Assembly: GCF_000279145.1 (NCBI RefSeq)
Contig: NC_018178.1
Location: forward strand, 124,001 to 188,000
From: Melioribacter roseus P3M-2
GTDB lineage: Bacteria; Bacteroidota; Ignavibacteria; Ignavibacteriales; Melioribacteraceae
Direction: 5' to 3'
Length of the DNA stretch: 64,000 nt
The position numbers and the translations under genes were made by a program. Shown one piece after another: positions 35,985 through 43,855 of the stretch. Within the stretch, counting starts at the first letter, position 1. The number at the start of each line of letters is the position of its first letter. The notes below the pieces were generated by a model, which saw only the letters and a program-made list of their open reading frames with translations, was not told the origin of the DNA and made no database searches.

Positions 35985-38594
35985 TTATACCACACCCCCC
36001 CACACCTTATCAATCACCCTTTTTATCTTCTCCTCATAGGCCTTCACCATCTCCCGCAGGCTGTCTATCACCCTCCGCTCGGATTCGATTTTTTCGACAA
36101 TACGCTGCTGGACTTCAAGGGGCGGAAGGGGGATTGTTAAATTTTCAACATCATTAGTATTTATGCTGGGATATGCCCCTTTACCCATTTTAATTGTCAT
36201 TTGTTTCATAGTTGCTTCTGAAAAAATACAAGTATAAAGATATTCAGGGATTATGCTTTCTTTACTCCTTAATACAGCAAATCCTGTTGAAGCAATTGAA
36301 TTCTTTGGTAATCCTTTAAGTAGTGCAAAAGCTTTTAAGTTAGGACGAACAGTTGATAACAAAATATCATTTTCTTTTATTACTCGTTTTGCACGGCTCG
36401 GAGCATTTTTAGCTGAAATTTTGTTTTCAAAAGAGACTTTTCCTGTTCCATTCTCTACGGAAGTTATGTCAATGTAAACAATTTCAGTTTCACCAAATAT
36501 ATCGTATGGATAGACGGAGTCAGGATTTATCTCACATACCTCTCCCAGCTTCACCATCGGCCACCCTTCGACAGGCTCAGGGCGGTGACCTTCGGCAAGT
36601 TCTTCCTGCTTTCCCGGGTGCTCTGCAAGGTAGGTCTTGAGCTCTTCCTCCAGGTAGCCTTCCACATCGGGCTTCCAGGCATCTATCACCTGCCTGCAGC
36701 CGTCGATAAGCTTCCGGTAGCCTTCTATCTCTGCCACTATCTCTTGCTGCACTTCAGGCGGAGGGAGTGGGATTTGGATATTTTTAATTTCTAAACTTAC
36801 ACCACCAATTATACCTTTTATATATGGTTGCAATAAACTTTTGAATTGATTTGATTGTAATATTCTAAAAAGAAATTGGTTTTTGATATCTTTATTGGCT
36901 CTAAATATATAAACATGCTCATTGACAGCCGCTTTATCACTGTATTTCCAATATCCAATTTTCCCAGTAGTAGCTCCATCTTTTACCATTAATACGTCCC
37001 CATAATGAAGGATACCTTTTTTCATTTCTTTGAAATATTCTTCTGTAATATATTTCATTTTGTCGAATCGTATTGATCCATCTTCTGATATTTGTTCTCC
37101 ACCAATACTATAAATACCTTTTTCAACAGCTCCACCTTTTTGACGTGAACCAGTTTCAATCTCACACACCTCCCCCAGCTTCACCATTGGCCATTTCCGG
37201 TGTTTGCGTTTTTCTACTACCCGGTATCTATCGCCGGTGAGGTAATATTCGCCATTTTCGGCAAGTTTTTCTTTTTTCACCAGCAGGGCAGAGCAGGGTT
37301 TTTCGTCGGCATTAAATTCATCCACTTTGCCATTTCTTACCTTACCCAGATATTCACGGATCACCTGCAGAGCATCGGGCAGATCGTTTCTGTCAATGGG
37401 GCGGCGCTGGGCACCGAGGTCAAAGCCGTCGTTTTCAATTTTTATAAACAGAATGCTATCGGTCTTTCTGGCAAGTTCTTTATCCATAAGCAGGATTGAG
37501 GTCTTCACCCCTGAATAAGGCTGAAAAACTCCGGCAGGCAGCGAGACCACAGCATACAGATAATTTTCAACCAGCATCCTGCGAAGCTGCTTATAGGCAT
37601 TTGCACTCTGGAAAATAATGCCTTCGGGGACAATCACCGCCGCCCTTCCTGTGGGAGTAAGATGCTCGGCGATATAGTCGACAAAAAGCACCTCGCTACG
37701 TTTACTCTGCACGCTAAACTTTTTATGCGGCTTGATACCTCCCTTCGGAGTCATAAAGGGAGGGTTGGCAAGGATTACATCGGCATATTCGTTCCATCGG
37801 TCTTCGCTCGTCAGGGTGTCGTATTCGTATATTTGAGGGTTTACAAAGCCGTGAAGATACATATTGACAAGCGAAATTCTCACCATATCGGGCGAAATGT
37901 CATAGCCTTTGAAGTTGGTAAGCAGTTTTTTCTTTTCATCGGTAGTAAGCAAGTCGCCTCTTCCGTTACCGTTTTGTGAGCGGTATTTTTCGGAAGTATT
38001 TTCACGCATAATATATTTGTATGCTGAAATTAAAAATCCGGCAGTGCCGCAGGCAGGGTCAAGGATGAGTTCGTTTTTTTGAGGGCTAACTATTTCAACC
38101 ATAAAATCGATTATATGCCGTGGGGTGCGAAATTGCCCGGCATCGCCCTGACTGCCAAGTACAGAAAGCAAATACTCAAAAGCATCGCCGAGGCTCTCGG
38201 AATGGTCGTAGGTGAATTCGTTTATGGTTTTCAGAAAGAGTTTGAGCGTTTCGGGGTCGCGATAGGGCAAATAGGCGTTTTTGAAAATGTTACGAAAAAG
38301 CTCGGGCAAATTGGTATTCTGACTCATCCTTGTTATGGCATCAGCATAAAGACTGAGCATCTCATGCCCACCAAGACGAGGGTCAAAAATTTTGTCCCAG
38401 CTATATTTTTCATATTCTCCTGTGAAAAAGGTTCGCTTACCGCCCATCTCTAGTGATTCTTTATCCATGTCATTCATAAACTTGTAGATTAGGGCGATGG
38501 TAATCTGCTCCACCTGACTCTTTGGGTCGGGCACTTTGCCCACAAGGATATCACGGGCGGTGTCGATTCGTCTTTTAGTTTCAGAATCAAGCAT
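35985..38594 (-). CDS. hsdMS: Type I restriction-modification: fused methyltransferase-specificity protein (HsdM-HsdS)
   Basis: An 869-residue protein joining two subunits that are normally separate. Residues 1-460 are the N6-adenine methyltransferase, with SAM motif DPACGTAGFL (179-188) and catalytic NPPF (277-280). Residues 468-869 are a specificity subunit with two target-recognition domains, each opening WPMVKLGEVCEI (468 and 678) and closing with the dimerising helix IPLPP(P/L)EVQQ(E/R)IV (near 608 and 822). A full-length HsdS is therefore present and in frame. A repeat-encoded RPEPVEG segment (671-677) lies between the domains. With HsdR it would form a restriction complex recognising a bipartite site, and the methylase would protect the host. 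Confidence 0.92.
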   Translation of the reverse strand: MLDSETKRRIDTARDILVGKVPDPKSQVEQITIALIYKFMNDMDKESLEMGGKRTFFTGEYEKYSWDKIFDPRLGGHEMLSLYADAITRMSQNTNLPELFRNIFKNAYLPYRDPETLKLFLKTINEFTYDHSESLGDAFEYLLSVLGSQGDAGQFRTPRHIIDFMVEIVSPQKNELILDPACGTAGFLISAYKYIMRENTSEKYRSQNGNGRGDLLTTDEKKKLLTNFKGYDISPDMVRISLVNMYLHGFVNPQIYEYDTLTSEDRWNEYADVILANPPFMTPKGGIKPHKKFSVQSKRSEVLFVDYIAEHLTPTGRAAVIVPEGIIFQSANAYKQLRRMLVENYLYAVVSLPAGVFQPYSGVKTSILLMDKELARKTDSILFIKIENDGFDLGAQRRPIDRNDLPDALQVIREYLGKVRNGKVDEFNADEKPCSALLVKKEKLAENGEYYLTGDRYRVVEKRKHRKWPMVKLGEVCEIETGSRQKGGAVEKGIYSIGGEQISEDGSIRFDKMKYITEEYFKEMKKGILHYGDVLMVKDGATTGKIGYWKYSDKAAVNEHVYIFRANKDIKNQFLFRILQSNQFKSLLQPYIKGIIGGVSLEIKNIQIPLPPPEVQQEIVAEIEGYRKLIDGCRQVIDAWKPDVEGYLEEELKTYLAEHPGKQEELAEGHRPEPVEGWPMVKLGEVCEINPDSVYPYDIFGETEIVYIDITSVENGTGKVSFENKISAKNAPSRAKRVIKENDILLSTVRPNLKAFALLKGLPKNSIASTGFAVLRSKESIIPEYLYTCIFSEATMKQMTIKMGKGAYPSINTNDVENLTIPLPPLEVQQRIVEKIESERRVIDSLREMVKAYEEKIKRVIDKVWGGVV
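36563..36582. repeat. Copy of the widespread short repeat ACCCTTCGACAGGCTCAGGG inside hsdS
   Basis: This 20-bp sequence is translated in frame on the minus strand as RPEPVEG at the junction of the two target-recognition domains. I know the same short sequence as a dispersed element in many unrelated bacterial genomes. It may be an insertion that became a linker. Confidence 0.45.
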
Positions 38595-42553: not shown

Positions 42554-42560
42554 AAGTGAG

Positions 42561-42635
42561 TGGGCGCTGAAGGATTCGAACCTACGACCCCCTGCTTGTA
42601 AGGCAGGTGCTCTGAACCAGCTGAGCTAAGCGCCC
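42561..42635 (-). tRNA. tRNA-Val (anticodon TAC)
   Basis: Seventy-five nucleotides fold into a full cloverleaf: acceptor GGGCGCT/AGCGCCC, D arm GCTC..GAGC, anticodon stem CCTGC/GCAGG with loop CTTACAA (TAC), T arm GTAGG TTCGAAT CCTTC with one T-T mismatch, discriminator A. CCA is not encoded. It is followed by a terminator. Confidence 0.95.
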
Positions 42636-42713
42636 AAACATATTATCAAAAAATTGAGTATCAATTATAGCTGATTTAAAGTAAATATTCAATACCTCTA
42701 AAAAATTTTTTTG

Positions 42714-42786
42714 AGCGGGCGACGGGACTCGAACCCGCGACATGCAGCTTGGGAAGCTGCCACTCTACCAACTGAGTTACGCCCGC
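42714..42786 (-). tRNA. tRNA-Gly (anticodon CCC)
   Basis: Seventy-three nucleotides form a cloverleaf: acceptor GCGGGCG/CGCCCGC, D arm ACTC..GAGT, anticodon stem GCAGC/GCTGC with loop TTCCCAA (CCC), T arm GCGGG TTCGAGT CCCGT, discriminator T. CCA is not encoded. It lies 78 bp upstream of tRNA-Val on the same strand and downstream of three repeats copied from its own 5' half. Confidence 0.95.
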
Positions 42787-43002
42787 ATATTTTTATGTTT
42801 TTTATTTTTTCTACAGGCTGCCACTCTGCCTCCGTCAGTTGACGGATGAGTTACGCCCGCATATTTTTTATGTTTTTTATTTTTTCCTACAGGCTGCCGC
42901 TCTGCCTCCGTCAGTTGACGGATGAGTTACGCCCGCTTAATTTTTGTCACTTTTTTATTTTTTCCTACAAACTGCCACTCTACCTCCGTCAGTCGACGGA
43001 TA
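42787..43002 (-). repeat. Three tandem ~76-bp repeats derived from the tRNA-Gly 5' half and its leader
   Basis: Each unit contains an A/T-rich leader (ATATTTTTTATGTTTTTTATTTTTTC on the plus strand, split by short variation) and a tRNA-Gly 5' part. The tRNA-derived parts are at 42816-42860, 42892-42936 and, truncated, 42970-43002. In all three the D-loop is replaced by a small palindrome-containing insert (TCCGTCAACTGACGGA on the minus strand; TCGACTGACGGAGG in the last). The 3' half of the tRNA is missing, so none can be a working tRNA. Confidence 0.85.
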
Positions 43003-43109
43003 AAACAATTTTTCAATGAACTCAAATAATCTAATTTTTTAACCTATTATCAATTGCAAAATTATCAACAGTCAAATTCAGATTCAATATTTTTTTATAA
43101 CTTTATATC

Positions 43110-43855
43110 ATGAAAAATTTCAACAAGATAACGGAATTGATACTTATAACCGCCTCTCTTTTAACCATAGTCATATTATGGGATACTAAAATTATCTATC
43201 CAGTAAAACTTATGTTCATATTGTTTCATGAAGCTAGTCATGCGCTGGCGACCTTTCTCACAGGCGGGAAGATTGTCGGCATTGAATTGAACAATAATCT
43301 ATCGGGAGGTTGCGTTGCAGAAGGCGGAAGCAATCTATTGATTGCGCTGAGCGGCTACCCCGGCAGCTTTTTGATTGCCGCCTTATTGTTTTTTTCGGCT
43401 TACAATAAAAATTAAAACTTATCTCTGCGTTCGGAATACCGGCGGCTTTGGTTTTTATTGCGGCTAATTTCATTGAAGATACGGTAATGTCGATAATTAT
43501 ATTAATAATTGCTGCGGCTTTTTTTGTTATAGCGCGTTTTACTCCGGAAGCGTTAAATCGATTGTTTTTCAGAATTATCGGACTTACCGGATTGATTTTC
43601 GTGGCGCTCGATCTTTTTGCTGATTCAACAGGGGAAAATTTAATCCGTTCCGACGTAGCTCTGTTGTCGCGTCAAAGCGGCATTCCCGAATTCGCCTGGA
43701 TAGCTTTATGGCTTTTGATTTTTCTGGTTTTGTTTTGGTATATGGGCAAAAAAAATTATTTTCAACAAAAACTGATTTATTTATCGCGAACCGCCCCGAG
43801 AAATAACAGACCAACCACAAAAAATATACCTATACTTAAAATGGCATATTTCTGA
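43110..43855 (+). pseudogene. M50-type membrane metalloprotease-like gene, split by a frameshift
   Basis: Two adjacent frames make up one membrane protein of about 245 residues. The first part (43110-43415) has a membrane helix and the zinc motif FHEASHALATFLTGGK (HExxH) typical of M50B-like peptidases. It stops at 43413 after SAYNKN. The second part continues in the -1 frame as KLKLISAFGIPAALVFIAANFIEDT and three more membrane helices. The shift falls in AATAAAAATTAAAAC (43404-43418), an A-rich run. It may be a true disruption, a slippage site or a sequencing error. The last 79 bp overlap the convergent MFS gene. Confidence 0.7.

Follow-up and report, generated by a model that had tools for sequence, protein, structure and literature searches.

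Arrays of disabled tRNA halves beside intact tRNA genes in Melioribacter roseus and related bacteria: a candidate homing-like element of tRNA genes

Organization of the tRNA-Gly(CCC) locus

The window analysed here is a 64-kb stretch (64,000 nucleotides) of the M. roseus P3M-2 genome (3,300,414 bp, one contig). It carries a tRNA-Gly(CCC) gene preceded by tandem units made of its leader and 5' half (Table 1). On the tRNA strand, the first two units each consist of tRNA nt 1-14, the insert TCCGTCAACTGACGGA replacing GTT of the D-loop, approximately nt 18-33 and an AT-rich leader; the insert is a 16-bp palindrome. The original prediction of three leader-plus-5'-half units of ~76 bp, all with the same palindrome-containing insert in the D-loop, describes units 1 and 2 well and the outermost copy less so, as the latter is truncated and its insert differs by one base. 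Because the insert is shared by the units, the proposal that one altered copy was amplified within the array is upheld.

Table 1. Features of the tRNA-Gly(CCC) locus (positions in the window)
Feature	Position	Strand	Description
tRNA-Val(TAC)	42560..42635	-	Downstream of tRNA-Gly(CCC)
Intact tRNA-Gly, anticodon CCC	42713..42786	-	ARAGORN; Rfam RF00005, 68.9 bits
Unit 1	42787..42862	-	Leader of the intact tRNA-Gly, tRNA nt ~18-33, D-loop insert, nt 1-14
D-loop insert of unit 1	42831..42846 (genome 166831-166846)		TCCGTCAACTGACGGA (tRNA strand), in place of GTT of AGTTGGTA
Unit 2	42863..42938	-	Composition as unit 1
D-loop insert of unit 2	42907..42922		Identical to the unit 1 insert
Unit 3 (outermost)	42941..43002	-	Truncated; starts at the palindrome, without tRNA nt 1-14
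D-loop insert of unit 3	42985..43000		TCCGTCGACTGACGGA; one base differs from units 1 and 2

Tandem Repeats Finder reported a 76-bp array at 42773-43001 (three copies, 90% matches) with a score of 363, against 49 for the next best array in the window, which excludes chance as its origin. The same units were delimited by a direct-repeat search (42787-42862, 42863-42938 and 42941-43016). The predicted fold of the unit is stable (-24.0 and -20.7 kcal/mol). No Rfam family besides RF00005 (tRNA) reached its gathering score in the window, and the RtT RNA model was unmatched. No GIY-YIG ORF was found within 42787-43002.

An assembly error, one of the conditions under which the original prediction was to fall, is unlikely and we reject it: the genome is complete, its repeat regions were verified by PCR and sequencing (PMC3534657), and the same architecture occurs in other genomes.

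Two further features of the window deserve mention. A membrane-protease-like frame with a HEASH motif (MKNFNKITELILITASLL...) at 43110-43855 appears to be split into 43110-43415 and 43448-43855, perhaps by a frameshift. A restriction-modification methylase/specificity-like ORF at 35985-38594 (-) includes AEGHRPEPVEG, which resembles a translated short repeat of the GCTTCGAC...GCTCAGCG type lying within the gene.

Arrays at other tRNA genes of M. roseus

A search for the palindrome elsewhere in the genome, as had been suggested, revealed a second array of the same plan upstream of tRNA-Thr(TGT). Reading the flanks of all located tRNA genes showed upstream 5' fragments at Gly(CCC), Thr(TGT), Val(GAC) with five units of 136 bp, Arg(ACG) with five units of ~100 bp, Ser(TGA) with three units, Ser(GCT) and Cys. 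Downstream 3' fragments accompany Asn, Asp, Pro, Cys, Ser(CGA) and two tRNA-Met. An element limited to tRNA-Gly, as first conceived, is thus too narrow a description: the plan recurs at other isotypes and in other families, upstream as well as downstream of tRNA genes, and the unit often includes a GIY-YIG gene. A one-off amplification is rejected on the same grounds, arrays of the same plan being present at other tRNAs.

Many fragments carry an insert of 15-60 nt, often palindromic, in a conserved loop. It lies in the D-loop of 5' fragments or the T-loop of 3' fragments, or else the anticodon arm is replaced; the D-loop palindrome is therefore one among several loop inserts used. The units are short and uniform, measuring 64-136 bp without an ORF and ~300-450 bp with one. 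The 5' units include the leader region and the 3' units include terminator-like hairpins. At Gly, Thr and Arg, the outermost unit has its start at or within the palindrome, which led us to consider that the palindrome may be a cruciform cut by a nuclease; the outermost units at other loci, however, start in the acceptor.

Disabled copies were also seen for the tRNA-Cys located downstream of tRNA-Gly(GCC) (L071, L074, L080), in which a palindrome such as CCCCGATTTAATCGGGG links the anticodon region directly to the T-loop.

Survey of tRNA flanks in three genomes

The stretches around RF00005 matches were surveyed in M. roseus (43 tRNAs) and in two complete genomes from another family of the order, G069 (42 tRNAs) and G071 (41 tRNAs). 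The survey was near-complete, two G071 tRNAs (at 3.679 and 3.688 Mb) being left out. Adjoining fragments were detected at 11 tRNAs in M. roseus, 13 in G069 and 13 in G071, out of ~42 per genome; these counts are lower bounds, as the cut-off used (E<=0.01) misses even the array at Gly(CCC). In these free-living bacteria roughly one-third of all tRNA genes have tandem broken copies of themselves alongside. In an E. coli control, 13 of 15 tRNAs had no fragment, and tyrT/tyrV carry known 3' repeats.

All 36 of the 5'-end fragments in the three genomes lie upstream of the intact gene and all 63 of the 3'-end fragments downstream. Such an arrangement is expected of any tandem duplication in which one gene stays intact, but such duplication does not by itself account for the recurrent breakpoints and insert positions.

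Units bearing an ORF were found at Leu(CAG) (five), Arg(CCT) (three) and Ser(TGA) (three) in G069, at Asp (five) in G071 and at Pro (three) in G058, where the 317-bp unit comprises tRNA nt 1-52 and a GIY-YIG gene; the G069 Arg(CCT) and G071 Ser(TGA) units are similar. Units without an ORF were found at Leu(CAA) (about nine) and Thr (seven) in G069 and at Thr (10) and Glu (six) in G071. The same tRNA may have different forms: Ser(TGA) has ORF-less units upstream in M. roseus, ORF-bearing units upstream in G071 and ORF-bearing units downstream in G069. A loose D-loop pattern run on relatives gave mostly chance matches, and only loci adjoining a tRNA were kept; the named database records that have the D-loop insert are from uncultured Ignavibacterium.

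An orphan Val-like tRNA 3' fragment with the T-loop insert TCCAAAGGATGCTTCGCA lies at L264 (G069:C1:141500-143200), with no intact tRNA within 1.7 kb.

GIY-YIG nuclease genes within the units

Somewhat under half of the fragment-bearing loci have a GIY-YIG gene inside a unit, and more than half of the arrays are without one. At M. roseus Ser(GCT), a 5' half with a D-loop insert is followed by a whole ORF placed at the anticodon loop, then by the leader and the intact tRNA gene. This ORF (MYYVYILKS...YYIGHT...) encodes a GIY-YIG protein (PF01541). Among solved structures it is closest to UPF0213 proteins, followed by SLX1 and I-TevI. The 3' form starts with the intact tRNA and a trailer; the ORF comes next, and after it a tRNA 3' fragment with insert and again a trailer. 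This form has an ORF at Pro, Asn, Asp and Cys of M. roseus and lacks one at Met; in the Pro cassette the stop codon of the ORF falls in the D-loop of the fragment.

Leaving aside UvrC-type genes and two hits below threshold, M. roseus has 16 GIY-YIG hits, grouped in 11 clusters. Seven of these 11 non-UvrC clusters lie less than 400 bp from a tRNA gene, a location expected for 0.9% of the genome (p=1.6e-12). Among the top-scoring GIY-YIG loci of relatives, 15 of 29 had an intact tRNA somewhere in the 3 kb retrieved. Within our sample the link is rarer in the wider phylum and weak away from the class. Inspection by eye showed no GIY-YIG remnants within the ORF-less units. As the ORF is absent at Gly(CCC) and present in sister units elsewhere, the Gly(CCC) array is a related ORF-less array and not a member of a SegB-like cassette type.

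Distribution and pairing of the loop insert

Across isotypes and genera the insert falls at set positions, in the D-loop between nt 14 and 18 and in the T-loop around nt 55-58; the T-loop inserts of G069 and G071 lie between GGTTC and GAATCC. The sequence of the insert is not conserved between relatives. The G069 T-loop insert TGCRMAGCANCCTYYGGA has 16 exact copies in its genome, every one within a fragment derived from a tRNA; one copy is in reverse orientation to its tRNA. The strict motif CCGTC(N4)GACGG has 13 sites in M. roseus: five in tRNA halves, seven at the ends of two CRISPR arrays and one elsewhere.

Stems exceeded those of shuffled sequences (p<0.05) in nine of the 21 inserts measured and were no better than shuffles in the other 12, and in G069 the pairing decays between sister units. 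Disruption of the loop therefore looks more constant than palindromy. The lack of conserved stems between the G069 sister units argues against a required RNA hairpin there; a palindrome serving as such a hairpin is weakened as an explanation by the same two observations.

The Rickettsia palindromic elements are short palindromic DNA inserted in and between genes. REPs are likewise short palindromic sequences inserted in and between genes (PMC3733652). The G069 insert differs from REP/RAYT and from the Rickettsia elements in that its exact copies are confined to tRNA fragments and not dispersed, and a dispersed REP-like palindrome is largely rejected for that genome. With 13 sites, 12 of them in tRNA halves or CRISPR ends, the strict M. 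roseus motif likewise lacks the wide scatter between genes of a REP-type element.

In M. roseus, the repeats at one end of each of two CRISPR arrays (L005, G000:C1:928600-930700; L007, G000:C1:2662800-2664900) are degenerate. Palindromes (CCCGTCGGAGTCGGG, CCCGACTCTGACGGG) take the place of their central loop, and more palindromes, for example TCCGTCGACTGACGGA, stand between repeats in tandem blocks. No GIY-YIG gene was found near these repeats in the 2 kb read.

Orthologous loci in relatives

The Gly(CCC)-Val(TAC) pair of M. roseus is also present in G131, which belongs to another family of the same class. There, one 5' half lies upstream of tRNA-Gly(CCC), with the D-loop insert ATTCCCGCTAGACGCGGGATAAAGTGC and a break at the anticodon loop as in M. 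roseus (judged by eye). At the neighbouring tRNA-Val(TAC) there are two 5' units without an ORF, as well as a GIY-YIG ORF and a 3' fragment on the downstream side. The different insert in the G131 half implies that the M. roseus array is either old, with inserts that change, or has formed at this position on more than one occasion. For the proposed comparison of copy number with related strains, a search of the same-genus genome G001 for the array locus recovered the tRNA-Thr unit and not Gly(CCC). The Thr unit also occurs in G036 and G065, beside what by eye is apparently the same divergent methyltransferase-like gene.

Discussion

Broken tRNA copies of a common anatomy recur at tens of tRNA loci, follow the upstream/downstream rule, carry inserts at set loop positions, exist in forms with an ORF inside the unit and are found at orthologous loci. 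On this sequence evidence we lean towards regarding the Gly(CCC) array as a homing-like element of tRNA genes in a form without the ORF, either non-autonomous or decayed. The full form would be a cassette made of a 5' or 3' tRNA fragment, disabled by a loop insert, and a UPF0213/SLX1-like GIY-YIG ORF of ~80-110 aa, so placed that one intact tRNA gene is left.

Two known systems bear on this reading. SegB of phages T4/T6 is a free-standing GIY-YIG homing endonuclease encoded next to phage tRNA genes; it cuts inside tRNA genes with a preference for RAWTSGAAC and drives segmental amplification of the tRNA locus by recombination (PMC13096335). The likeness lies in a GIY-YIG gene beside tRNA genes, in cutting of these genes and in tandem amplification of segments with tRNA DNA; the M. 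roseus proteins, only tentatively likened to SegB, have the size of UPF0213 proteins. By our own comparison, the reverse complement of the SegB motif, GTTCSAWTY, fits the T-loop GGTTCGAATCC, the site of the T-loop inserts. SegB differs in belonging to phages and not to a bacterial chromosome and in amplifying a unit that includes a full-length tRNA, and disabled tRNA halves with loop inserts are unreported in the available part of that account (PMC13096335).

The second system is that of mobile ORFs in fungal mitochondria that come with a duplicated gene end, described for atp6 of Allomyces and for atp6, atp9, cox2 and nad3 of Glomus. There, the gene that holds an endonuclease ORF is made whole again by an inserted copy of its end, and the native end, now displaced, lies beyond the ORF (PMC3630166). 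This is the anatomy of the M. roseus Pro, Asn, Asp and Cys 3' cassettes and does not apply to the ORF-less Gly array. The fungal elements differ in residing in mitochondrial protein genes, with a LAGLIDADG enzyme in Glomus atp6, and the portion of the source available reports neither a loop insert nor tandem ORF-less arrays.

From cutting and amplification by SegB and from the anatomy of the fungal mobile ORFs we infer loop breaks by nucleases, duplication by repair and a disabling insert. The nuclease would cut the tRNA gene within conserved loop DNA. Recombinational repair would then produce a segmental tandem duplication, placing the leader and tRNA 5' part upstream or the tRNA 3' part and trailer downstream. 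The insert, at or near the cut site, would destroy the target in the extra half or make this half inert as RNA. Unequal recombination would later alter the number of units, and ORF-less units would presumably derive from ORF-bearing ones.

Several observations count against homing. The Gly(CCC) array has no GIY-YIG ORF and most arrays are ORF-less. The presumed target is still present in the intact tRNA next to the nuclease, which calls for a protection rule such as recognition that reaches the native flank. The palindromes of the arrays also occur in degenerate CRISPR repeats without a GIY-YIG gene in 2 kb. The GIY-YIG/tRNA link is weak outside the class as sampled, and the SegB motif fits the T-loop and not the D-loop. 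Nor does homing supply a source for the inserts.

The half-duplications could alternatively have originated by replication slippage, promoted in this lineage by hairpins and replication-transcription conflict, with REP-like palindromes gathering only in dead copies and the GIY-YIG genes as later settlers. We consider this unlikely, though it is the strongest competitor: it accounts for the upstream/downstream rule, as would any tandem duplication sparing one gene, for the palindromes in degenerate CRISPR repeats, another redundant hairpin-forming sequence, and for inserts that are sometimes not palindromic, but it does not predict set loop positions across isotypes and genera, the confinement of the exact G069 insert to tRNA fragments or GIY-YIG clusters adjoining tRNAs far above chance. 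A functional RNA appears improbable. The halves would be co-transcribed with the tRNA and either processed into tRNA-half-like RNAs or used as a structured leader or trailer tuning tRNA output, the insert preventing mis-pairing with the intact tRNA; the leader region in 5' units, the terminator-like hairpins in 3' units and the stable unit folds are in keeping with it. So is the annotation of the small RNA rttR at the E. coli tyrT/tyrV repeats. The unconserved insert stems of the G069 sister units, the variation of copy number and sequence among relatives and the lack of Rfam matches other than tRNAs speak against such an RNA, and it leaves the GIY-YIG link unexplained.

Mobile DNA is well known to land in tRNA genes, which are classic att sites, and att ends are marked by partial tRNA copies. 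On this background, the fragments could be serial scars of integrase-type elements (tyrosine-recombinase islands) that once entered the tRNA gene and have since been lost, but such an origin is very improbable: at the loci read the units are short and uniform with only a GIY-YIG ORF inside, the breaks lie in several loops, upstream 5' fragments are frequent and the loop inserts go unexplained.

The distal repeats of E. coli tyrT/tyrV (rttR, tpr) resemble the arrays in being tandem, downstream of the tRNA and in each containing a 19-nt tRNA 3' end. They differ in being restricted to the 3' side and in having no loop insert, and only one locus in the four sampled E. coli stretches has such repeats; no GIY-YIG gene is annotated in the 5-kb stretch of that locus.

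The known kind to which a homing-like tRNA-gene element would belong is that of homing-endonuclease elements with gene-end duplication; what is new here is the arrays of disabled tRNA halves. The original prediction knew of no described element of this sort, and we too found no account of such bacterial arrays in the open-access literature searched, although absence there is not proof. Relative to that literature, elements able to break tRNA genes and restore them from one half or the other, with arrays of disabled halves left behind, would be novel. If the homing-like reading is true, it would assign a role to the UPF0213-type GIY-YIG genes that abound next to tRNAs in these bacteria, extend SegB-type amplification from phages to bacterial chromosomes and provide a natural archive of recurrent breakage in essential RNA genes. 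A broader and more doubtful possibility, which we put forward tentatively, is a class of selfish elements on tRNA genes, based on UPF0213-type GIY-YIG nucleases, in which the tRNA half would be a spare part, the insert a lock making this half uncuttable and the ORF-less arrays followers mobilised in trans, together occupying about one-third of the tRNA genes in a bacterial order.

Tandem GIY-YIG genes also occur apart from tRNA genes: in a 5-kb stretch devoid of intact tRNA from another family of the phylum (L260, G143:C34:5800-10800), eight GIY-YIG ORFs of ~83 aa follow one another ~364 bp apart.
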